A DNA stretch of 64,000 nt from Laceyella sediminis (GTDB taxonomy: Bacteria; Bacillota; Bacilli; Thermoactinomycetales; Thermoactinomycetaceae). Below, piece after piece: positions 590 through 11,072 of the stretch. Each line of letters starts with the position of its first letter. Positions within the stretch are counted from its first letter, which is position 1. The notes below the pieces were generated by a model. The model was given only the letters and a program-made list of their open reading frames with translations. It was not told the origin of the DNA and did not search any database. The stretch lies in the NCBI RefSeq assembly GCF_003003125.1, contig NZ_PVTZ01000002.1, positions 248,001 to 312,000 on the forward strand. The letters are read 5' to 3'. Position numbers and translations under genes: made by a program.

Positions 590-2668
590 TTAGTGAACCC
601 CGTCCGCCACCTCAGCTGCTGAATCAAACTCCAGCGACAAGGCCAAGATTTCGGCCACATCCATCGTTTTCACTTGATCTTCCACTTCTTTGGCCTTCGT
701 ACCATCCGATAGCATGGTGAGACAGTAAGGACAAGCACTGCCGATCACCGTCGGGTTCACTTGCAACGCTTGTTCCGTACGCGCGACGTTCACCCGCACC
801 CCTTCTGTTTCTTCCATCCACATCATCCCGCCACCGGCGCCGCAACACATGCCGTTTTCGCGGTTGCGTTCCATCTCGACCACTTCCACGCCCGGAATCT
901 GGCTCAGAATGTAGCGGGGCGCGCTGAACACGCCGTTGTAACGGCCCAAATAACAGGAATCATGGTAGGTGATCCGCTCATTCACCTCTTTGGTCGGTTT
1001 GATGCGCCCTTCTTTGATCAAATCAGCCAACACTTCCGTGTGATGATACACTTCCGCCGTCAAGCCCAAATCAGGATACTCGTTTTTAAACGTGTTGTAA
1101 GCATGAGGGTCGATGGTAATGATCTTCTTCACTTGATGCTTCTCAAACAAAGCGATGTTATCAGCGGCCAATTGTTGGAACAAGAACTCATTGCCCATCC
1201 GTCTGGCCGTGTCCCCGGAGTTTTTCTCTTTGTTGCCCAAAATAGCGAACTTGACGCCTGCGTGATGCAACACCTTTACCAACGCCCGGCTGATTTTCTG
1301 GCTACGGTTGTCAAACGACCCCATCGAACCGACGAAGAAGAGATATTCGAAGTCTTTTTCTTCTTTGACCGTGGGCACTTTCACTTCTGCGTCTGCCGTC
1401 CATTTGTCGCGATCCTTGCGGTTGATGCCCCAAGGGTTGCCTTGGCGCTCGATATTGGAGAACGTCCGGGAAGCTTCGGCGTTCATCTTCCCTTCAGTCA
1501 TTACCAAGTAGCGGCGCATATCGATAATTTTGTCTACGTGTTCATTCATCACCGGGCAGGCATCCTCACAGTTGCGGCAGGTGGTACAAGCCCACAGCTC
1601 CTTTTCTGTGATGACATCGCCGATCAAGCTAACCGGATACTCACCCTGGCCAGCCAACCGCAACGAAGCTTGGTTTGCCTCTGCGAAGGCGAAGTTGGGT
1701 ACCCACGGCGTTTTGGAGGTGATCGCCGCCCCTTTCATGGTCAAGTGGTCACGCATCTTAACCATCAAATCCATCGGAGACAACAGCTTCCCTGTTCCCG
1801 CTGCAGGGCAGACATTGGTACAGCGCCCGCATTCTACGCAGGCATACAAATCAATCAATTGCTTCTGATTGAAATCTTCAATCTTTCCTACGCCGTACTC
1901 TTCAACGCTTTCATCTTCAAAATCGACCAAAGACAACTTCGCTGGTGGTTGTTGCCGCTTGAGGAAGACGTTGAGCGGAGCGACCAGCAAATGAAAGTGT
2001 TTTGACTGGGGCACATAAACCAAAAAGGAAAACAAGACCAAAGCATGAATCCACCAGAATACATAAAACAGCACTTGGCCAGCGTCTGCACCCATCCAAC
2101 CGAGAAATGGGCTAGCTAACACGGAAGAAATCGGCGTGTCCCATGACGAACCGTGCCCTAACCAAACTTTCTCAAAGGCAGCCGACAAGAGAATGGAAGC
2201 CATCAAGCTCGTCAGAAAAATAATGACTAAGCCGGATTTTAATCCGCGCTTCAACCGCGGCAATTTCTCAATGTAACGACGGTAGTAAGCGTATAGCGTC
2301 GCCAGCAATACGAGGAAGGTAGTGATTTCCTGGATCAAGGTGAACACCGGATAGGCGGGCACGGGAAGATGTTTGCCAGGCACCAATCCTTTGATGAAGA
2401 GATCAATCGCCCCAAATTGGATCACAATGAATCCATAAAACATCACCACGTGCATGATGCCGCTTTTGACATCTTTCAACAACTTCTTCTGTCCAAAGAC
2501 ATTGATCCACACTTCGTCGAGCGCTTTTTTGACATCCATGGAAAAGTCAGCGGGCTTCCCCAAGCGGACGTACATATACCGCCGATAAACCACACTGCCG
2601 AAGAGATAAAAAGCATAACCCGCAACGGCGATGAACAAAACCAGATTGATCACTTCAAACAGCGACAT
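590..2668 (-). CDS. fadF: Membrane-bound iron-sulfur oxidoreductase FadF (heterodisulfide-reductase-like)
   Basis: This 692-residue protein matches Bacillus FadF (YwjF, about 705 aa), thought to pass electrons from acyl-CoA dehydrogenase/ETF to the quinone pool during fatty-acid beta-oxidation. Several hydrophobic segments lie in residues 1-225. Two CxxCxxCxxxCP ferredoxin-type motifs follow (about residues 277-287 and 361-371, each binding a [4Fe-4S] cluster). Two CCG-type cysteine-rich domains come next, including DSCYLGRYNG and MCCGAGGG. The ATG at 2668 is preferred over upstream in-frame starts because GGGGAGAGG sits just before it and MSLFEVINLV begins the first membrane segment. A FadR-like box lies about 80 bp upstream. 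Confidence 0.9.
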   Translation of the reverse strand: MSLFEVINLVLFIAVAGYAFYLFGSVVYRRYMYVRLGKPADFSMDVKKALDEVWINVFGQKKLLKDVKSGIMHVVMFYGFIVIQFGAIDLFIKGLVPGKHLPVPAYPVFTLIQEITTFLVLLATLYAYYRRYIEKLPRLKRGLKSGLVIIFLTSLMASILLSAAFEKVWLGHGSSWDTPISSVLASPFLGWMGADAGQVLFYVFWWIHALVLFSFLVYVPQSKHFHLLVAPLNVFLKRQQPPAKLSLVDFEDESVEEYGVGKIEDFNQKQLIDLYACVECGRCTNVCPAAGTGKLLSPMDLMVKMRDHLTMKGAAITSKTPWVPNFAFAEANQASLRLAGQGEYPVSLIGDVITEKELWACTTCRNCEDACPVMNEHVDKIIDMRRYLVMTEGKMNAEASRTFSNIERQGNPWGINRKDRDKWTADAEVKVPTVKEEKDFEYLFFVGSMGSFDNRSQKISRALVKVLHHAGVKFAILGNKEKNSGDTARRMGNEFLFQQLAADNIALFEKHQVKKIITIDPHAYNTFKNEYPDLGLTAEVYHHTEVLADLIKEGRIKPTKEVNERITYHDSCYLGRYNGVFSAPRYILSQIPGVEVVEMERNRENGMCCGAGGGMMWMEETEGVRVNVARTEQALQVNPTVIGSACPYCLTMLSDGTKAKEVEDQVKTMDVAEILALSLEFDSAAEVADGVH

Positions 2669-2747
2669 TGTCCTCTCCCCTTCCACATCATCTTTATGAA
2701 TGATTGAATTCGCTTTCATACTATTTCGCTAACATTCTAACATAAAA

Positions 2748-3117: not shown

Positions 3118-3123
3118 TATAAT
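3118..3123 (+). promoter_or_regulatory. Candidate -10 box of the partition cassette
   Basis: A consensus TATAAT directly precedes the first 43-bp repeat unit (3126). No strong -35 is visible at 17 bp. If used, transcription starts inside the repeat array, so the repeat-binding protein would repress its own operon, as known for ParR of type II partition systems. Confidence 0.45.
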
Positions 3124-3125
3124 AT

Positions 3126-3275
3126 GACTATAGTCAGGACGACAGTCCTGATTATCCGCCCCATTGCTGACAATTGTCATGACTATGGTGCACAACACTC
3201 CTCAGATTGAAGACGATAGTCCGTACAATGGTACACAAGAAAGATATTTTAAAGACAGTTGTCCTGACTGTCGTC
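3126..3275 (+). repeat. parC/centromere-like array: four units at 43-bp spacing, each with two 10-bp half-sites
   Basis: Units begin at 3126, 3169, 3212 and 3254 (steps 43, 43, 42 bp, about four helical turns). Each holds two copies of a GACnAnnGTC-like 10-mer set 12 bp apart: GACTATAGTC/GACGACAGTC, GACAATTGTC/GACTATGGTG, GACGATAGTC/TACAATGGTA and GACAGTTGTC/GACTGTCGTC. The array sits between a TATAAT and the start of an actin-like gene, exactly where type II plasmid partition loci carry the centromere bound by ParR. The order centromere-motor-adaptor supports this reading; binding itself is inferred. Confidence 0.75.
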
Positions 3276-3303
3276 AACACAACCCAGAAAGGTGGCCCAA
3301 AAA

Positions 3304-4098
3304 ATGTTAGTGGCGGTAGATGCTGGACGTGCATATGTGAAAACAATTGTGGGAACCCGCAGGTTCACATTTCCTTCCAAAGTGTCAAAAGCAAGGCAGC
3401 GCAACTTTATCCAGACACTAGAGGATGATATGGAGATCCGATATCAAGGAAAGGATTATTTTATTGGACAATTGGCTGAACGGGAGGGTTCGTTCACTCG
3501 TCAGATGATGACGGAAAGCAAAGTGAACATAGAGACCGTCCTGTTGATTTTGACGGCATTGTTCCAAGCAGGAGCATTAGGAGACGTTAAGCTGGTTACC
3601 GGAGTGCCGATCAATATGTACAGAGATGACGAACGGGCAAGGTTGCGGGCCAAGCTAGAGGGAGAGCATGAAGTGATCCTGAATGGTACATACCGCAAGA
3701 TCAACATTAAAAAAGCGGCGATTACGATTGAGGGAGGAGCCGCCTATTGGATTCACCGCCGGATGGGGACGGTGCGGATCGTAGACCCCGGAGCCCGCAC
3801 GACCAATTACGCAACGTTTAAAGATGGGATTTTCATCGACCGGGAGAGCGGAACGATCCCCAAAGGCTGGGACAATGTGCGGGAAGCCGATCCCGAAGAG
3901 ATGGCGGCCATGCTGGTGGGTCATCTGGGAGGCATGTGGGAGCCGACCGACGTGGTCGAATTAATCGGCGGCAAAGCGCAAGATCTGCTGGAACCCTTCA
4001 AACGCGTGGGCTTCATCTATTCCACCACATTTGAAGATCCGCAGTTTGCCAATGCGATAGGGTACTACGCGTTAGGAAAGGAGACCCTTGGTGAATGA
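3304..4098 (+). CDS. ParM/Alp-type actin-like ATPase (chromosomal partition cassette)
   Basis: This 264-residue protein has the actin-fold signatures in order: phosphate-1 loop VAVDAGRAYVK near the N-terminus, phosphate-2 loop IVDPGARTTNYATF around residue 160, adenosine motif ELIGGKAQDL around 220, and FANAIGYYALGK near the C-terminus as in ParM/StbA/Alp proteins. Such proteins form ATP-dependent filaments that push DNA apart. It is short against ParM (about 320 aa). The ATG at 3304 has AAAGGTGG 7-8 bp upstream; a GTG at 3292 would add four residues. It is preceded by the 43-bp repeat array and overlaps the adaptor gene by four bases (ATGA), indicating translational coupling. Confidence 0.85.
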   Translation: MLVAVDAGRAYVKTIVGTRRFTFPSKVSKARQRNFIQTLEDDMEIRYQGKDYFIGQLAEREGSFTRQMMTESKVNIETVLLILTALFQAGALGDVKLVTGVPINMYRDDERARLRAKLEGEHEVILNGTYRKINIKKAAITIEGGAAYWIHRRMGTVRIVDPGARTTNYATFKDGIFIDRESGTIPKGWDNVREADPEEMAAMLVGHLGGMWEPTDVVELIGGKAQDLLEPFKRVGFIYSTTFEDPQFANAIGYYALGKETLGE

Positions 4099-4379
4099 GC
4101 GGATACAAGAAGCGGGAACGGCGGCAAGTCTCGTTTAACACCGAAGACGCGGTGGAACTGGAGTTGTTGAGATTTATTGACCGCAAGGACATCAACTTTT
4201 CGGGGTTGGTGAAGAATCTGCTATTCGCCTACTGCATGGGACAGCTGAAAGCAGATGAACTCTCCGCTTCTCCGTTGTTGCAGGCTGGCGGTAGCAACAA
4301 CCCCCTTCCTACCCCAAAAGCGGAACGTTCCTCTTCCTTTCAACAAATCAAGGCGAGCGGCATGCCCTTTGATTTTTGA
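4095..4379 (+). CDS. ParR-like ribbon-helix-helix adaptor (predicted centromere-binding protein)
   Basis: The 94-residue product starts with a basic arm and a beta strand (RERRQVSFN) followed by two predicted helices (AVELELLRFIDRK, NFSGLVKNLLFAYCMGQL), the ribbon-helix-helix pattern of ParR/Arc-type DNA binders. After a flexible Pro/Ser-rich stretch it ends in a short tail, QQIKASGMPFDF. In ParR proteins the C-terminal tail contacts the actin-like filament. Its start overlaps the stop of the actin-like gene by four bases. The likely target is the 3126-3275 array, and it probably also represses the operon. Function is inferred from fold pattern and context. Confidence 0.65.
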   Translation: MSGYKKRERRQVSFNTEDAVELELLRFIDRKDINFSGLVKNLLFAYCMGQLKADELSASPLLQAGGSNNPLPTPKAERSSSFQQIKASGMPFDF

Positions 4380-4403
4380 TACCAACTTCAGGAGTGAAAT
4401 GCA

Positions 4404-4760
4404 GTGAATAAACCGTATTCCTTTAGCGTGCCTTATGATGTAGCGGAGAAATTAACCCCCAAGGAGCGCTTTGTTTACTATGAATTGTGCCGCTTGGCCG
4501 CGACCGAACCGACAAAAGACACCACGTTCGGCGTCACCTTGGAACCGGGAAGCCTCATCACTTCCCATTACCGCTTATCAAAAATATTGGATTACGCTTA
4601 TTCTCAGACAGCGATTATCATCGAACACCTGGCCTACAAAGATCTGGTTGAAATCACTCCCATTGCGCAAGGAGGATTCCAATCTTATTACCTCATCCGC
4701 GTTAAAAGCATGGACCAAGGGACGAAGGTACGGCCAGAAGATCGACTTTTTCCATTTTGA
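4404..4760 (+). CDS. Small winged-helix-like protein at the end of the partition cassette
   Basis: This 118-residue protein has the segment LTPKERFVYYELCRLA followed by a recognition-helix-like SHYRLSKILDYAYSQTAIIIEHLAYKDLVEI and a beta wing (GGFQSYYLIRV). The pattern resembles DnaD N-terminal or replication-initiator winged helices; no family is recognised with certainty. GTG is the start, with AGGAG nine bases upstream, 24 bp after the adaptor gene. A strong terminator follows at once, so the three genes form one unit. A regulatory or replication-linked role is a guess. Confidence 0.6.
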   Translation: MNKPYSFSVPYDVAEKLTPKERFVYYELCRLAATEPTKDTTFGVTLEPGSLITSHYRLSKILDYAYSQTAIIIEHLAYKDLVEITPIAQGGFQSYYLIRVKSMDQGTKVRPEDRLFPF

Positions 4761-4771
4761 TCCAAACATCG

Positions 4772-4813
4772 CAAAACGGTTTTCTCCACTGAACATGGAG
4801 AAAACCGTTTTTT
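4772..4813. terminator. Strong intrinsic terminator shared by the partition cassette and the kam operon
   Basis: A stem of about 16 bp (AAAACGGTTTTCTCCA/TGGAGAAAACCGTTTT) with a 7-nt loop is followed by T on the plus strand. It lies between convergent genes (4760 plus, 4815 minus) and can act in both directions. Confidence 0.9.
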
Positions 4814-4814
4814 A

Positions 4815-5579
4815 TCAACGACGGGATTCCATGCGCGCCCGCTCCCTCCGTGCAATCTCCTGCACAAAGTAGGAAGCCACATGCGGTGCCAAGGTTCCTG
4901 GCCCAAATCCAGCATCAAACCCCAACTCTAACGCCAATTCATGATGAATGCGCGGACCGCCACAGATCAAAACAAATCGCTCCCGCAATCCTTCCGCTTC
5001 CAGCAATTCCACCAGTTCTGTCAAGTTGGTCACATGCACCCCTTTTTGGGTGACCACTTGCGAGACCAGCAACACATCCGCCTGCAATTCCAACGCTTTG
5101 CTGATCAATTCCTCATTCTCTATTTGGCTCCCTAAATTGTATGCCTCGATTTCAGGATACCGTTCCAAGCCATACTCCCCGTTGTACCCCTTCATGTTCA
5201 TGATCGCATCGATGCCCACGGTATGGGCGTCGGTGCCTGTGCAAGCGCCGATGACCACCAGTTTGCGCCCGATTTGCTCGCGGATAAACTGGTTGATCTC
5301 ATAAAAGTCCATCACTTTACTTGTCACCTTGGGCACTTGAATCCGGCTGTAATCGACATCCACCTGGCATTTGCCGTAAACAATGAAAAAGGTGTACCCT
5401 TCACCCAAGTCTTTCATGTGATACACTTGCGGTTCATCGATTGCCATCTTGGCGACCAATTGCCGCGCCGCTTCCCGAGCTTCTTCTCCCGCCGGAACGG
5501 GCAGCGTGAAACTGAGTTGAATCACCCCGTCATTCATGGTGTCCCCATAAGGTTTAACTCTGGTAAAGTCCACACTCAT
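4815..5579 (-). CDS. kamE: Lysine 5,6-aminomutase beta subunit (cobalamin-binding)
   Basis: KamE carries the adenosylcobalamin domain of lysine 5,6-aminomutase, which moves the terminal amino group of D-lysine or L-beta-lysine to carbon 5, giving 2,5- or 3,5-diaminohexanoate. The B12 motif is visible as TDAHTVG (about residues 116-122; the His ligates cobalt), followed by the Rossmann-like part with LLVSQ and ICGGPRIHH. Length 254 aa fits the family (about 260). The ATG at 5579 has GGGAGGG upstream and overlaps the end of kamD by 26 bases, so the two subunits are translationally coupled. It is the last gene of the operon. Confidence 0.93.
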   Translation of the reverse strand: MSVDFTRVKPYGDTMNDGVIQLSFTLPVPAGEEAREAARQLVAKMAIDEPQVYHMKDLGEGYTFFIVYGKCQVDVDYSRIQVPKVTSKVMDFYEINQFIREQIGRKLVVIGACTGTDAHTVGIDAIMNMKGYNGEYGLERYPEIEAYNLGSQIENEELISKALELQADVLLVSQVVTQKGVHVTNLTELVELLEAEGLRERFVLICGGPRIHHELALELGFDAGFGPGTLAPHVASYFVQEIARRERARMESRR

Positions 5580-7158
5580 TCCCGTTTCCCTCCCGCTCCG
5601 GCAATCCCAATCTTCTGCGGAGTTCCTCCTCCAACGGATTGTAATAATCGATTTCTTTTTCCACCACGCCGCGCAAACCCTTGCCGCCGACCCGCGACCT
5701 TTTCACATCGGCGAACACGCCCTGCTCCAAAGCCGTGAACAACCCGCTTTCGCACACTTGCTGAAGCAAGTCCCCCGCCTGCTTCAGCACCTCGGTCGCC
5801 CGCTGCTCGATCCGTCCCCCTGGACGGAACAACAGCTCTTCACCCAGACGACGCCCATTGTTGAAAATGTATTGCGCGCTCTCCAAAGCCAATTGGCGGT
5901 CATGCATGTGCGGGGTGTGCATCGCTTCCGTCATCATCCCCAATAATTGGATGCCTTGCCCCGTCAGGATGCTCACCAGATTAAACAAAGCATCCTGTAC
6001 GTGCCCTTTGAAAATGTTACCGGTCATGTGCTTGGTTGGCGGCATGTATTTAAGTGGGGCGTCGGGGAAGAGCTCGCGCGCCAATTGCGCTTGGGCGATC
6101 TCCAGCAGCAAACCGTCCTCCAAGTCGGGGTTCATCTCAAATGCATGCCCCAATCCCATCTGCTCAGGCGGCAGTCCGGACAAGAGAGCTAGCTGTTCAT
6201 TAATGAATTGGGAGGCTGTCACTGTATGGGCCGCTTCAACCGCGTCTGCCGTGGTCAAATAATTGTCTTCCCCGGTATTGATGATAATCCCGGCATAGCT
6301 GTTGATCATGCGGGAAAACGCTTGATCGATCAGGGTTCGTTGCATGTTGATGTCACGGAAAAGAATGCCGTACAGCGCATCGTTCAGCATCACATCCAAC
6401 CGCTCAAGCGCTCCCATCGCCGCGATCTCCGGCATGCACAACCCAGAACAATAGTTGCACAGCCGAATATACCGTCCCACTTCCTCACCTACTTCATCCA
6501 GCGCCCGCCGCATGATCCGAAAATTCTCCTGTGTGGCAAACGTTCCGCCAAACCCCTCACGGGTTGCCCCATAAGGCACATAATCCAACAAGCTTTGGCC
6601 TGTGCTCCGGATCACGGCGATAATATCGGCCCCTTGCCGCGCCGCCGTTCGGGCCTGCACCACATCTTCATAAATGTCTCCGGTGGCAACGATAACATAG
6701 AGATAAGGTTGCCGCCCTTCGCCGATGCGCTCAATCCACTCTTCCCGTTCCCGCCGCCGCGCTTGGATCAAGTCCAGTGCCTCACGGGCCAATCGCTCCC
6801 CTTCACGCTGAATCTCCTCGTGTGGGAGAGGGGGCACTTGCAACAAATGGAGTTCCCCCCGCGCCACTTTCTCCGCCACTTCCTGCGCTGAGAGACGATG
6901 CGCCAACATCGCCTGAATCACCCAAAAGGCCGCCCCGGAAGAGATCTTCCCTTCTGTCAGCAATTGTTCGACGATCACATTGGGGAGCGGCACGCCCTCA
7001 TGGTCAATGCCGTCAATCCCCAACAACCGCAGCACAGTCCGCTCCACCGCTACTGTTGTGCGGGTGGAGATGTACTGGTCCACATCTGCTGCAATCACTC
7101 GTGCCGCTTCCCGGGCCCGATCGATATCAGCCTGATTCAGCCGCAGTTTTCCCTTCAT
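5554..7158 (-). CDS. kamD: Lysine 5,6-aminomutase alpha subunit
   Basis: This 534-residue protein matches KamD, the large TIM-barrel subunit that holds substrate, PLP and the adenosyl group in the B12-dependent lysine 5,6-aminomutase. Family-like stretches include DIIAVIRSTGQSLLDYVPYG, ATQENFRIMRRALDEVGEE and YSGLCMPEIAAMGALERLD. ATG at 7158 (MKGKLRLNQADIDRAREAA) has a G-rich ribosome-binding site and overlaps the end of kamC by 32 bases; an upstream in-frame start at 7197 would intrude further. It works with KamE, whose gene overlaps its 3' end. Confidence 0.92.
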   Translation of the reverse strand: MKGKLRLNQADIDRAREAARVIAADVDQYISTRTTVAVERTVLRLLGIDGIDHEGVPLPNVIVEQLLTEGKISSGAAFWVIQAMLAHRLSAQEVAEKVARGELHLLQVPPLPHEEIQREGERLAREALDLIQARRREREEWIERIGEGRQPYLYVIVATGDIYEDVVQARTAARQGADIIAVIRSTGQSLLDYVPYGATREGFGGTFATQENFRIMRRALDEVGEEVGRYIRLCNYCSGLCMPEIAAMGALERLDVMLNDALYGILFRDINMQRTLIDQAFSRMINSYAGIIINTGEDNYLTTADAVEAAHTVTASQFINEQLALLSGLPPEQMGLGHAFEMNPDLEDGLLLEIAQAQLARELFPDAPLKYMPPTKHMTGNIFKGHVQDALFNLVSILTGQGIQLLGMMTEAMHTPHMHDRQLALESAQYIFNNGRRLGEELLFRPGGRIEQRATEVLKQAGDLLQQVCESGLFTALEQGVFADVKRSRVGGKGLRGVVEKEIDYYNPLEEELRRRLGLPEREGNGNECGLYQS

Positions 7159-8770
7159 CTTCCCCACTCCCCAATCGTCGTTCCGCATCCGCCACAATCT
7201 CTTCCGGCAACCCTAAGAGCAGGGCCAGGCGGAGAGCGTCGGCATCAAGCGCTTCCTCCCGTTGCACCGGAATGAGTCGATAATCCATATGGCGGTGCAA
7301 CCGCTCCCGCCACGCCCCTTCACTCCCCAGCCCTTCCCGTTCTAAATCCGTCCATGACAAGCCGGCCACTCGGTAACGGCGGATGCCGGGCAACTGATTC
7401 ACCTCATGATAATGCGTCACATGCACGGCCCAATCATTCCCTTCGCTCAACCGGCTTGTGATCGCTCGCGCTAAGGCCGCTCCTTCCCGCGGATTGGTCC
7501 CCCTGCCGATCTCATCCAACAGAAGCAATCCCTCTCCCGGTTGGTTCAGCCACTGCGTCAAACGCACCACTTCCGCCCCAAAGCGGCTTAAGCCTTGCTT
7601 TGTGGACTGCCCGTCGCCCAGCGTGCTCGCAATCCAGTGCATCAAGGGCAGCCGGCAAGCGGTGGCGGGCACAAACAATCCATAATGAGCCAAGACGGCA
7701 ATCAGCCCTACCGTTTTTAAGGCGACAGTCTTGCCTCCCATGTTGGGGCCAGTGATTACTGTGACACCACGGCCCACTTCCAGATCAATCGGCGTCACGC
7801 TTCTCCCTTCCGCGGCCACGTCTTGCGCGATGCCCGGATGGATGGCTCCCTCAAGGAGGAACCGGTCTCCATCCCACTCCGGCCGCACACCGGCCCACTT
7901 CTGTCCAGCATGATAGCGGGACCATTGCAAATCGAAGTGCGTCACCTGTTGCATCCAGTACCGCAAACGGGGATACACGCGCCTAAATTCTTCGGTCAAC
8001 TGGACGCATACCGCCTGTTCCCGCGCTTCCACTTGCTCTTGCAACCTCGCCATCTCTTGATCAGCGACTTCTGGCAAGCGAAACGTGACATCATATGCCG
8101 TTTCTGCCTCGCACACGACCCGCCGATCCTGGCGCAACGTTTCTTCTAAAGGCGTGTGGCGCGGAACCGTCCAAGTTCCTAAACGGTTCCGGCGGATACC
8201 ATACGCTTCCTCGATCTCCCGCTTGCATTGTTCTACGCGCTCTCGCTCCTTGATTTCCATGCGGCGCCATTGTTGCCGCAAGCGGCGCAAATCATCATCA
8301 TACGCATCATCAATCCAAAAAGCGGCTGTCCGATTAGTACCCGGATTGAGTCGCGCCAAGCACTGTTCCAAAAGCGGAACATCTTCCTCCGGCATCAGGG
8401 AAACGACTGTGCACCGATGCTCCCGCATGAGGTGGTGTAGTTGGCCGAATTGCCACAAAAATTGTTTCATGTGGAACCAATCAGTCAGCCCCAACACCTC
8501 ATCCGCACCCAATTTGTCCAATTGCCCTTCGATGTCCGGCATCTTCTTCAAGCAATGCGAGACCAGTGCTTGGCAACGAGGATGGGCCGCTAGCCACAAG
8601 TTGATTTCATCCTGTTCACGAAGCACTTGTTCCCACTCGCGCTCTTCACCCGGACGAAAAGGACGCGCCCGCCGTTTGGCCCGCTTACCCATCGGCGTGA
8701 GAGGCTGCCACAAGTTCCAACAATACGCCACATCCAACTCCGCCCATGTCGTTTCATCCCAATGGATCAC
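7127..8770 (-). CDS. kamC: MutS-like ATPase KamC, predicted lysine 5,6-aminomutase reactivase subunit
   Basis: The C-terminal half is a MutS-family ABC ATPase: Walker A GPNMGGKT (residues 341-348), Walker B with GLLLLDEIGRGT, and a His in HVTHYHE. The N-terminal half is helical with no mismatch-recognition domain, so it is not a repair MutS. In lysine-fermentation clusters a MutS-like protein next to kamDE is annotated KamC, thought to help remove damaged cofactor from the aminomutase. GTG at 8770 is chosen because GGAGGAAGGAGGGG directly precedes it; it overlaps kamB by 17 bases. The reactivation role rests on family annotation and context. Confidence 0.85.
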   Translation of the reverse strand: MIHWDETTWAELDVAYCWNLWQPLTPMGKRAKRRARPFRPGEEREWEQVLREQDEINLWLAAHPRCQALVSHCLKKMPDIEGQLDKLGADEVLGLTDWFHMKQFLWQFGQLHHLMREHRCTVVSLMPEEDVPLLEQCLARLNPGTNRTAAFWIDDAYDDDLRRLRQQWRRMEIKERERVEQCKREIEEAYGIRRNRLGTWTVPRHTPLEETLRQDRRVVCEAETAYDVTFRLPEVADQEMARLQEQVEAREQAVCVQLTEEFRRVYPRLRYWMQQVTHFDLQWSRYHAGQKWAGVRPEWDGDRFLLEGAIHPGIAQDVAAEGRSVTPIDLEVGRGVTVITGPNMGGKTVALKTVGLIAVLAHYGLFVPATACRLPLMHWIASTLGDGQSTKQGLSRFGAEVVRLTQWLNQPGEGLLLLDEIGRGTNPREGAALARAITSRLSEGNDWAVHVTHYHEVNQLPGIRRYRVAGLSWTDLEREGLGSEGAWRERLHRHMDYRLIPVQREEALDADALRLALLLGLPEEIVADAERRLGSGEDEGKTAAESG

Positions 8771-9779
8771 GATCCCCTCCTTCCTCCAAGGGATCTCGCC
8801 ATACATCAAAGACCGGCACCGGCTTGCACAGCTCGGCCACACGCGCCTTCAGCTCCTGCGGCGGAAACACATGGCCTTCCGGCGACACAGGATTGACCGC
8901 CACCCCTCGCAACACCGCTGACCGCACCGTTTCAATGCGCCCGCCCCGCTCTAAATAACGCCGCAAAAGAACGGGATCGGCGAAGATGCGGGTCCAATCA
9001 GATACAATCAGTCGCGGGTAGCACCCTTGCTGCATCATGTGGCGCAACATGCGATCTGTCAATGCACCTGACAGCGCCACCGCCTCCGCCTTCAGGATTT
9101 CGGTATTCAGGGCTTCCTGCTCCATCAAGGTCAATGCCGCGCAAGATTTCCATGTACCTTCCCGCTTGCGATACACCCCACGATGAACCAACAGGGGCGT
9201 AAGCGCCTCACGATCGGGTTCTGGACAGACGGGCAATGAAAAGAGGCGCAACCACTCTGCTGTCTTAGACACCAATGCGCTCATCGACGCGCCCAGGCTG
9301 GCGCCCACCACCAAAATCACGGAGTCGGTGACCCAAGGGCTAGCTGCCATGCGCCGGTCATAAGCGCCGTCCACCACAACCCTTCGTACTCCGGCTCGCT
9401 GCAAGCCGTCGATCACCCGGTGCGCCTCTTCCCGCGTATGGACACCGGCCAGCTTCACTTGGGTTGGCCGCGTTGTTTGCGCGATCCACACCTCTCCCAA
9501 CGTGGTCGTAATCCCGGTCCCTTCCCAAACCGCGAAATGACCGGGCTTTTGATCAATGATCGCACCCGTCGTCGCCACCCAGACCCCTTCAGGAATCTTC
9601 AGCTGCGGCTTCGGCCTTCCGCTCCACGCATCCCGTTCCTCCCCGTCAATGCCGATGCTGCACACACCCAGCGGGCCACACAGGGACCACTGTTCCATAA
9701 AGGCGCTTAGAACCGTGGTTTTCCCCGCGTTTTTCGCCACACCGACAATCGCGGTGCTCTCACATGTTTTCTCTTTCAC
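8754..9779 (-). CDS. kamB: KamB, predicted lysine 5,6-aminomutase reactivase subunit (P-loop protein)
   Basis: About 341 residues with a P-loop GVAKNAGKTT near the N-terminus, then GVCSIGIDGEERDAW and a C-terminal substrate-like half (RLIVSDWTRIFADPVLLRRYL). Proteins of this type sit between kamA and kamC in lysine-degradation clusters and are annotated KamB. The start is uncertain: GTG 9779 has AGAGGG about 12 bp upstream, while TTG 9791 directly abuts that motif. It begins about 20 bp after the kamA stop and overlaps kamC, so it is in the same transcript. Confidence 0.78.
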   Translation of the reverse strand: MKEKTCESTAIVGVAKNAGKTTVLSAFMEQWSLCGPLGVCSIGIDGEERDAWSGRPKPQLKIPEGVWVATTGAIIDQKPGHFAVWEGTGITTTLGEVWIAQTTRPTQVKLAGVHTREEAHRVIDGLQRAGVRRVVVDGAYDRRMAASPWVTDSVILVVGASLGASMSALVSKTAEWLRLFSLPVCPEPDREALTPLLVHRGVYRKREGTWKSCAALTLMEQEALNTEILKAEAVALSGALTDRMLRHMMQQGCYPRLIVSDWTRIFADPVLLRRYLERGGRIETVRSAVLRGVAVNPVSPEGHVFPPQELKARVAELCKPVPVFDVWRDPLEEGGDRDPLG

Positions 9780-9800
9780 CCGCCACCACAACCCTCTTGC

Positions 9801-11072
9801 TCATCTTTTTTCCAGCACTTCCCCCTGTTTCCGCCGTAGCTCGCGGGTCAATTGTTTGGGCTCCAAGTTGATCCGTTGGTCGCTCAACAGCGCGGCTACA
9901 CCCAATTGATCCCCGGCCTGCTGGCAATACTCGCAATTCTCTGAGTCGTGCGGATGGTAATGCTCCGGCTCCGGATAACTGGTGATGACCCCTTCAAAGT
10001 TGCGCAACACGGTTTTAGACGGCGTCTGTGCGATGACGTAGTTGGGACTGAGCGGTATTTTGCCGCCGCCTCCTGGTGCGTCCACCACAAACGTAGGAAT
10101 GGCGTATCCCGAAGTGTGGCCGCGCAAATACTCGATGATCTCCAGCCCTTTGGACACGGGGGCCCGGAAATGGCCAATCCCTTCTGAAAGGTCACATTGA
10201 TAGATGTAATAAGGCCTTACGCGCGTCTTAACCAATTCATGCATCAGTTTTTTCATCACATGGGGGCAATCATTGATTCCGGCTAGAATGACAGCTTGAT
10301 TCCCGACCGGCACACCCGCGTCAGCCAACATCTCACAAGCCCGGCGCGCTTCTGGCGTCAACTCCTTGGGGTGATTGAAATGCGTGTTAAGCCAGACCGG
10401 ATGGTATTTCTTCAAAATGGCACACAACTCTTTCGTGATGCGTTGCGGAAACACAACCGGTGCCCGCGTGCCGATCCGGATGATTTCTACATGGGGGATC
10501 TCCCGCAGGTTTTTCAGCAGATATTCCAAGATCCGGTCATTGACCAACAAGCCGTCCCCTCCGGAGAGTAGCACATCGCGGACAGTCGGCGTGTTGCGGA
10601 TGTATTCGATACAAGCGTCCATCTGCTTTTTGGGGACGCCCATCCCGATTTGGCCCGAAAAGCGGCGGCGCGTACAATAACGGCAATACATGGAGCATTG
10701 GTTGGTGATCAAGAAGAGAACGCGGTCAGGGTAGCGATGGGTCAGCCCTTTCACTGGGGAATCCGTGTCTTCCAACAACGGATCGGCCATGTCGTACGAT
10801 GTGCGATACAACTCGGAAGAAATCGGCACCGATTGCATCCGAATCGGATCTTTGGGGTCGTCTGGGTCCATGAGCAAGGCGTAATAGGGAGTGATATTAA
10901 GCGGAATCGTCTCTTTAGAGATGTCAACTCCCTTGATTTCTTCCGGCGTCAGATTGATCACTTTGCTCAGGTCGTCATAATTGCGAATCGTGTGGGTCAA
11001 TTGCCATAGCCAATCGTTCCACTGTTCTTCCGTCACATCTTTCCACAGTTCAATCTCGCGCCAATCACGCAT
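9801..11072 (-). CDS. kamA: L-lysine 2,3-aminomutase (radical SAM, PLP)
   Basis: KamA interconverts L-lysine and L-beta-lysine using S-adenosylmethionine, a [4Fe-4S] cluster and PLP. The radical-SAM motif is CSMYCRYC (C126, C130, C133), followed by SGGDGLLV. The PLP-lysine region is DAPGGGGKIPLSPNY. A C-terminal cysteine/histidine cluster (HYHPHDSENCEYC) is the zinc-binding end seen in lysine 2,3-aminomutases. At 423 aa it is of usual length. It follows kdd by 63 bp and precedes kamB by about 20 bp. Beta-lysine can feed the KamDE step or serve as an osmolyte; the operon favours the former. Confidence 0.95.
   Translation of the reverse strand: MRDWREIELWKDVTEEQWNDWLWQLTHTIRNYDDLSKVINLTPEEIKGVDISKETIPLNITPYYALLMDPDDPKDPIRMQSVPISSELYRTSYDMADPLLEDTDSPVKGLTHRYPDRVLFLITNQCSMYCRYCTRRRFSGQIGMGVPKKQMDACIEYIRNTPTVRDVLLSGGDGLLVNDRILEYLLKNLREIPHVEIIRIGTRAPVVFPQRITKELCAILKKYHPVWLNTHFNHPKELTPEARRACEMLADAGVPVGNQAVILAGINDCPHVMKKLMHELVKTRVRPYYIYQCDLSEGIGHFRAPVSKGLEIIEYLRGHTSGYAIPTFVVDAPGGGGKIPLSPNYVIAQTPSKTVLRNFEGVITSYPEPEHYHPHDSENCEYCQQAGDQLGVAALLSDQRINLEPKQLTRELRRKQGEVLEKR

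Follow-up and report, generated by a model that had tools for sequence, protein, structure and literature searches.

Chromosome-encoded ParMs (cParMR/cParCMR) have been described in Desulfitobacterium and Clostridium botulinum by Ali et al. 2025 (PMC12270681), whose main text reports that a palindromic-repeat cparC lies upstream in C. botulinum and is bound by ParR. These systems resemble the Laceyella locus analysed here in that a chromosomal parM and an adjacent parR are conserved across species; they differ in belonging to other lineages and in the size of the actin, the Dh-cParM1 chain comprising 369 aa as compared to 264 aa in our protein. By word search, the main text of that study mentions neither Thermoactinomyces, Laceyella nor dnaA, and oriC occurs in a reference title only (PMC12270681). 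In filamentous cyanobacteria, FcmB/FcmC is likewise a chromosomal ParM-derived actin encoded next to a ParR-like gene, and it is presented as serving as a cytoskeleton in Nostoc (PMC12645912). The Laceyella cassette differs from FcmB/FcmC by retaining parC and by a ParM that falls far under the FcmB cut-off; CorM (PDB 9rmi) is named here as a further system of this kind. The AlfA system of Bacillus is plasmid-borne, with AlfB as adaptor and parN as centromere, and the AlfA subfamily is characterised by an actin devoid of subdomain IIB. Finally, the ParMR pairs of Alicyclobacillus plasmids, of a B. subtilis plasmid and of phage vB_BcoS-136 belong to the same ParM family as ours, and their adaptors share a VSFN...NFSGLVK-like core but differ in their tails; no perfect 10-bp palindrome was found in four plasmid/phage upstream regions.

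In the open-licence PMC literature, we found nothing on ParM in Laceyella or on actin-like proteins in Thermoactinomycetaceae, nothing on chromosomal ParM in papers on Thermoactinomyces chromosome segregation (judged by title and start of abstract), and no paper on CorMR with actin. Among the papers listed on ParMRC, oriC and related subjects, only Ali et al. concerns chromosomal ParMs by title. Chromosomal ParMs as such were already published in 2025; next to these sources, the link to the origin and the change of centromere motif reported below look new.

Layout of the cassette and its repeat array

The window, the whole stretch of 64,000 nucleotides that was analysed, corresponds to bases 248001-312000 of contig C2 of a 3.39-Mb Laceyella draft genome (Thermoactinomycetaceae). 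In it, a repeat array is followed by genes for an actin-like protein, an adaptor and a small third protein, with a divergent hdr-like gene on one side and a convergent kamE on the other:

590-2719, minus strand: hdr-like gene (iron-sulfur/CCG-domain), from Pfam
3118-3123, plus strand: TATAAT, a -10-like box lying 2 bp ahead of the first half-site and without a clear -35 box, read from the sequence
3126-3275, no strand assigned: parC-like centromere/operator, four units with eight 10-bp half-sites, from shuffles, genome-wide uniqueness and spacing in orthologues
3304-4098, plus strand: parM-like actin ATPase, 264 aa, compact (AlfA-like length), from Pfam, PHROG and a PDB-chain profile
4095-4379, plus strand: parR-like adaptor, 94 aa, overlapping the actin gene by 4 bp, from a 6-sequence alignment and hhalign
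4404-4760, plus strand: third gene, predicted small winged-helix DNA-binding protein, 118 aa, from AlphaFold2 and fold matches
4773-4811, plus strand: hairpin with T-run, operon end before the convergent kamE, from RNA folding
4815-5579, minus strand: kamE (ornithine/lysine aminomutase small-subunit-like), from Pfam

The half-sites start at 3126/3138, 3169/3181, 3212/3224 and 3254/3266, confirming the four units at 43, 43 and 42 bp with half-sites 12 bp apart that the initial annotation had read. Of the GACnAnnGTC-like motif proposed there, the palindrome stands: GACnnnnGTC with at most one mismatch describes seven of the eight half-sites, the eighth (TACAATGGTA, at 3224) having two mismatches, whereas the inner A is present in only six. 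The 260 bp upstream of parM contain 7 one-mismatch GACnnnnGTC sites (1.15 expected), three 12-bp pairs (0.01 expected) and four 41-44-bp pairs (0.02 expected), and none of 1000 dinucleotide shuffles reached any one of these counts. Searched across the 3.39-Mb genome, the exact 22-mer GACN4GTCNNGACN4GTC has two occurrences, both inside the array, and the reversed control pattern has none. Of nine genomes, five contain this double site; in these it is confined to the cassette, and none of the nine has it at any other place. The reversed control was found once (per strand) in three. No parS-like scatter of further centromere copies was thus observed at zero mismatches across the nine genomes, the search being one for exact matches. 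The proposal that all adaptor dimers would lie on one face of the DNA holds only approximately: by arithmetic at 10.5 bp per turn, 12 bp leave an offset of ~50 degrees between half-sites and 43 bp one of ~34 degrees between units.

In all seven close orthologues defined below and in a remnant copy in genome G017, 1-2 bp separate the end of the TATAAT box from the first half-site (by eye). Because the box abuts the first half-site, bound adaptor should cover the promoter, and autorepression is predicted. The operon would end at the hairpin (-22 kcal/mol, z -7.2), whose stability was equalled by none of 200 shuffles; the box was missed by the promoter/pattern scanner, as was the hairpin by the pattern scanner. 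A separate 11-bp tandem array (TTCACTTTTTA x 3.5) occupies 2884-2921, between the hdr-like gene and parC.

The actin was well described as a short actin-like ATPase, with 264 aa and matches to Pfam ALP_N (2.5e-27) and to the PHROG family 'partition protein' (8e-45). Compared to solved chains, a profile of five orthologues matched ParM 6izr (2.8e-12), pCBH ParM (1.2e-11), Dh-cParM1 (2.9e-10) and, more distantly, AlfA (2.6e-7, two chains, 6f95 and 6bqw), as well as the Cbc-ParM and CorM chains. The protein aligns collinearly with AlfA over residues 43-244 without a gap the size of a subdomain, which suggests a compact actin; its length, too, agrees with the AlfA subfamily. Similarity to FcmB and CorM is weak, the curated FcmB family model giving 28.9 bits against a cut-off of 300.

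In an alignment of six orthologues, the adaptor consists of a conserved core at ~9-47 (consensus RRQVSFN...NFSGLVK.LLFAY), a variable linker and a conserved tail, IKASG(M/I)PFD, at 85-93. A conserved core, a free linker and a conserved tail are the layout expected of a ParR. The core matched the adaptors of two Alicyclobacillus plasmids, a B. subtilis plasmid and a Bacillus phage in hhalign (E 2e-9, probability 96). PHROG returned weak families of unknown function (best 2.2e-4), Pfam yielded no usable match and the PDB none. The AlphaFold2 model is poor (59.8), with helices at 16-28 and 35-47 only. ParRs are described as typically ribbon-helix-helix proteins that bind repeats upstream of parM (PMC9426499). 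For our adaptor, this fold is tentatively assigned from the profile match to plasmid/phage adaptors; of the earlier description as a ribbon-helix-helix adaptor with a short tail, the tail is seen as a conserved sequence, next to a conserved core, and the fold is modelled at low confidence.

By sequence, the locus thus combines a ParM/Alp-family ATPase with a repeat array at the operon promoter, two defining features of type II partition systems. Its classification as a chromosomal type II (ParMRC-like) cassette stands as to class; carriage on a plasmid, a further feature of the type, is lacking, as in the published cParMRs.

Distribution of the cassette and two chromosomal ParM groups

Among 23 Thermoactinomycetaceae genomes, the Laceyella genome included, 18 have some ParM match, and seven ParMs (own included) are 83-100% identical. 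In these seven close orthologues, parM, parR and the third gene are collinear and phased half-sites lie upstream of parM, G007 having three units only. Six are located between the same two neighbours; G007 lies elsewhere and has no kamE match. The search for the same cassette in related chromosomes, which had been suggested as a check, thus recovered parC-parM-parR-third gene in 7/23 family genomes, six of them in one slot, and an actin gene without repeats and adaptor was not seen among the seven. Chromosomal parM and parR conserved across the species of a lineage, the pattern described by Ali et al. 2025, are found here too. Between genera, ParM is 83-90%, the adaptor 60-69% and the third gene 47-54% identical, as compared to 80-82% for the hdr-like protein, 77-83% for KamE and 73-78% for KamD (one terminal piece 64%). 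ParM is hence conserved at least as well as the neighbours, and the third gene least. Beside the aminomutase genes, a MutS domain V protein (7130-8842) diverges much faster than its neighbours, with only 40-43% identity between genera.

Between two Laceyella, parM has a dN of 0.0 and a dS of 0.136; at similar dS, the dN of the same pair is 0.013 for kamE and 0.008 for the hdr-like gene. Compared to four other genera (G004 left out), dN is 0.07-0.11 and dS at least 1.7 or saturated. Judged by these substitution rates, parM is under purifying selection.

In a survey of the slot, 34 genomes were found to have kamE, and 30 loci were inspected with 1.5 kb flanks. parMR was present in eight and the third gene alone in one (G010); at five loci (G013, G020, G021, G030, G032), the hdr-like gene was found within 1.5 kb and no par gene was detected. 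In G017, of the same genus as G018, the copy at L042 ~9000-10400 has decayed: parM and parR are broken, three half-sites of two parC units are left, and ~2.7 kb of other sequence separates the intact third gene from kamE.

Across the order, 32/42 genomes have a ParM match, and two groups can be distinguished. The O group comprises the seven close orthologues and five sister ParMs at 49-53% identity (G011a, G022, G033a, G028o, G029o). Its node is supported at 80/84 in a first tree and at 92/98 in a second, with plasmid and phage outgroups and seven distant rows left out, neither value earning the tool's star. Present in 12/42 genomes, it is not essential across the order; G028o and G029o occupy the same slot as the window cassette, inverted. 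The M group, which is widely conserved, consists of 17 rows (L029, L030-L032, L035, L049, L051, L052, L054, L057-L064). G036a (L053), of doubtful membership, was counted with the M group in the repeat tests; its adaptor ends in FA. The M-group adaptor is short, with the tail IR.SGLPFG in the members read (G030 and G037, and, by eye from DNA, G028m, G016b, G001 and G032). Genome G036 carries four ParM-like matches (L053, L065, L068, C6:22586) with 28-51% identity.

The two groups differ upstream of parM. A motif-free repeat score (G006, near-identical, and G002 and G003, near copies, left out) was high in 10/11 O-group regions (reached by at most 2/200 shuffles), the exception being G007 (116/200), and in only 1/16 M-group regions (G010). 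Pairs of the GAC motif at 12 or 41-44 bp were absent from 18/18 M-group regions, G036a included. Most M-group members have therefore kept a paralogous actin and adaptor without detectable repeats, and this group may have a cytoskeletal role resembling that of FcmBC. Having two old ParM groups in one order, of which one has a centromere and the other does not, allows segregation and cytoskeletal use to be compared.

In the sister ParMs of the O group, the palindrome is TTGTATATACAA, instead of the GACnnnnGTC type. Its GTATA cores lie at -107, -95, -64 and -52 relative to parM in both G011a and G028o (12/31/12 bp) and at -106, -94 and -63 in G029o (12/31 bp), so that the 12/31-bp spacing is kept in three of the five members. 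When TGTATATACA was searched with two mismatches, 12-bp and 41-44-bp pairs were detected in G011a, G022 and G029o (reached by 0-5/1000 shuffles). The same search gave two sites 31 bp apart in G028o, without a 12-bp or 41-44-bp pair, and a single unpaired site in G033a, in which neither motif is convincing. The adaptor strand residues differ as well, RRQVSFN being replaced by HRLVSFN and similar in the sister group. The spacing was held while the motif and the strand residues changed, as expected of a working adaptor-centromere structure. The two motif types constitute a natural experiment on the ParR-parC superstructure, in which spacing is perhaps more important than letters.

Proximity to the origin and candidate functions

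The cassette resides on a 383-kb contig that also holds dnaA and two ParB-family genes, and is thus not plasmid-borne; the orthologous cassette of G016 is on a 2.71-Mb contig. The window parC lies ~61 kb from dnaA. In the 11 O-group members, out of 12, in which the distance is measurable (parM and dnaA of G033a being on different contigs), parM lies 30.3-71.1 kb from dnaA: 57.8-71.1 kb in nine, 33.3 kb in G022, and 30.3 kb in G011a, on the other side of dnaA. The broken copy of G017 is at 62.1 kb. By contrast, M-group parMs lie mid-chromosome, 954-1098 kb away, in 4/4 measurable members, only these four of the 17 sharing a contig with dnaA. The kamE slot is itself close to dnaA even where no O-group parM is present (~73 kb in G030, 82 kb in G037), and the eight slot members together with G007 therefore count as about one inherited position. 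G007, where a similar regulator gene is seen nearby by eye, probably lost the kam genes beside its cassette. More independent evidence comes from G011a, located after an asparagine-synthase-like gene, from G022, flanked by rlmH-like and htrA-like genes, and perhaps from G033a, near walRK-like genes and so perhaps in another neighbourhood (all by eye), although short-range relocation around the origin would look the same.

That the cassette provides partition hardware is near certain, and this hardware looks like a complete ParMRC; its cellular job we infer. Its position, uniqueness and conservation and its coexistence with two ParB-family genes, ~11-16 kb from dnaA in this genome, lead us to favour, with somewhat better than even confidence, the view that this is a true chromosomal ParMRC, passed on vertically, which works on the origin region alongside ParABS. 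ParB-family genes were found in 8/8 genomes examined, so that ParMRC would be an auxiliary system. ParR-type dimers would bind pairwise to the eight parC half-sites and build a compact segrosome, with the conserved C-terminal tails (IKASGMPFD) facing the actin. ATP-bound ParM filaments would then grow from, or be capped by, the ParR-parC complex, and may act on sister origin regions by pushing them apart, pulling them or anchoring them, either along the hypha or into the forespore, thermoactinomycetes being mycelial and spore-forming. This auxiliary segregation or anchoring would take place beside the ParAB-type system, and the same ParR-parC complex, by covering the start of the operon promoter, would repress the operon. 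An actin machine used by plasmids for sharing between daughter cells may here move or anchor the chromosome itself. The second segregation system suggested by the initial annotation is compatible with these data and, as a hypothesis, gains from the origin proximity and the coexisting ParB-family genes. A wider version of the favoured reading is held tentatively, a little short of even confidence: in the mycelial Bacilli of the Thermoactinomycetales, an actin segrosome of the oriC region would move or anchor the origin next to ParABS, its adaptor and centromere letters having co-evolved at a fixed 43-bp/12-bp geometry, and the second, parC-less chromosomal ParMR of this order would have been freed for a cytoskeletal task.

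Alternatively, the cassette could be an ancient plasmid locus kept for incompatibility or selfish reasons, titrating or mis-pairing plasmids of the same specificity without moving the chromosome, or a locus that in the past helped to stabilise an integrated element. Plasmids are the usual setting of ParMRC, relatives occur on plasmids and phages, presence is patchy (a decayed copy in G017, a lost one in G010), and the origin proximity may simply have come with a slot that lies near the origin. A plasmid source in the distant past is possible. Over the records listed, plasmid ParMs matched at 25-34% identity (16 records) and phage ParMs at 26-34% (17 records). However, the third gene has no match in plasmid records, nor has the 194-bp parC in 72,556 of them, and the adaptor has a single match at chance level (E 0.8). 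Five neighbours scanned for domains gave four metabolic or repair-type proteins and one without a match, none being of mobile-element type. Together with purifying selection and the location of G011a and G022 near the origin outside the slot, these data make this explanation unlikely. As a recent event, the plasmid capture considered in the initial annotation finds no support, in view of the equal G+C of parM and window (0.513 each), the single slot shared across genera and the lack of plasmid matches for the third gene and parC.

It is distinctly improbable that ParMR has been repurposed as a cytoskeleton for hyphal shape, as FcmBC, with the repeats serving only as an autorepression operator. 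Nostoc provides a reported precedent (PMC12645912), the host is mycelial, and the actin has weak similarity to FcmB and CorM. Yet autorepression by itself should scarcely require an array of eight half-sites, phased across 150 bp and maintained even where the motif changed, the FcmB model scores 28.9 against 300 bits, and the repeat-less paralogue group fits such a role better. An action in trans on a resident plasmid or episome with matching sites is formally possible, and the main text of Ali et al. leaves it standing for their systems (PMC12270681). We consider it very improbable here: the exact double site is limited to the cassette in 5/9 genomes, degenerate copies being possible, and parC matches no plasmid record. 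Finally, a decaying relic or chance array without present function, for which the G017 copy could be cited, is hardly credible in view of the shuffle tests, the cross-genus conservation and a dN far below dS. Since the thermophiles that carry this conserved, origin-proximal ParMRC can be cultured and its centromere is intact and unique, the question of what chromosomal ParMs do becomes directly testable.

The third gene

The third protein had been described as winged-helix-like, which is borne out by an AlphaFold2 winged helix (mean pLDDT 83.4) and by winged-helix structural matches. Neither Pfam nor the PDB returned a strong match; Pfam TrmB was detected in 4/8 family members (best 2.9e-4), the window protein not being one of them. 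N-terminal structures of plasmid initiators are among the best fold matches (4pql, 4pt7, 5kbj; Z 8.0-9.1), tied with many winged helices, and Pfam gives TrmB, not RepA_N, so that a RepA-type initiator remnant is a weak candidate.

The third gene adjoins parMR in 7/7 close orthologues. In G010, an intact copy (~51% identical; L069 9184-9555) stands alone in the slot, with no parM, parR or GACnnnnGTC site near it, and this genome keeps an M-group parM elsewhere. No copy was detected next to the five sister-group cassettes; genome-wide, three of these genomes gave weak matches (E 0.08 or worse) and two none. Since G010 and G017 keep an intact copy although they have no working parMR, and none was detected beside the sister-group cassettes, the third gene is probably, judging from this distribution, a separately selected passenger regulator in the operon and not a core part of partition, and we doubt that it is an obligate fourth component. 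Of the four-part cassette put forward initially, its small third gene being called unusual, the linkage is thus seen in the close orthologues, but the third gene outlives parMR in two genomes. Longer winged-helix paralogues (180-273 aa) were observed at five loci (L070-L074) in as many genomes, each, by eye, beside a peptidase-like gene and a gene that we take to be EcsC-like; one such paralogue is in the window's own genome (G000:C10:43926).
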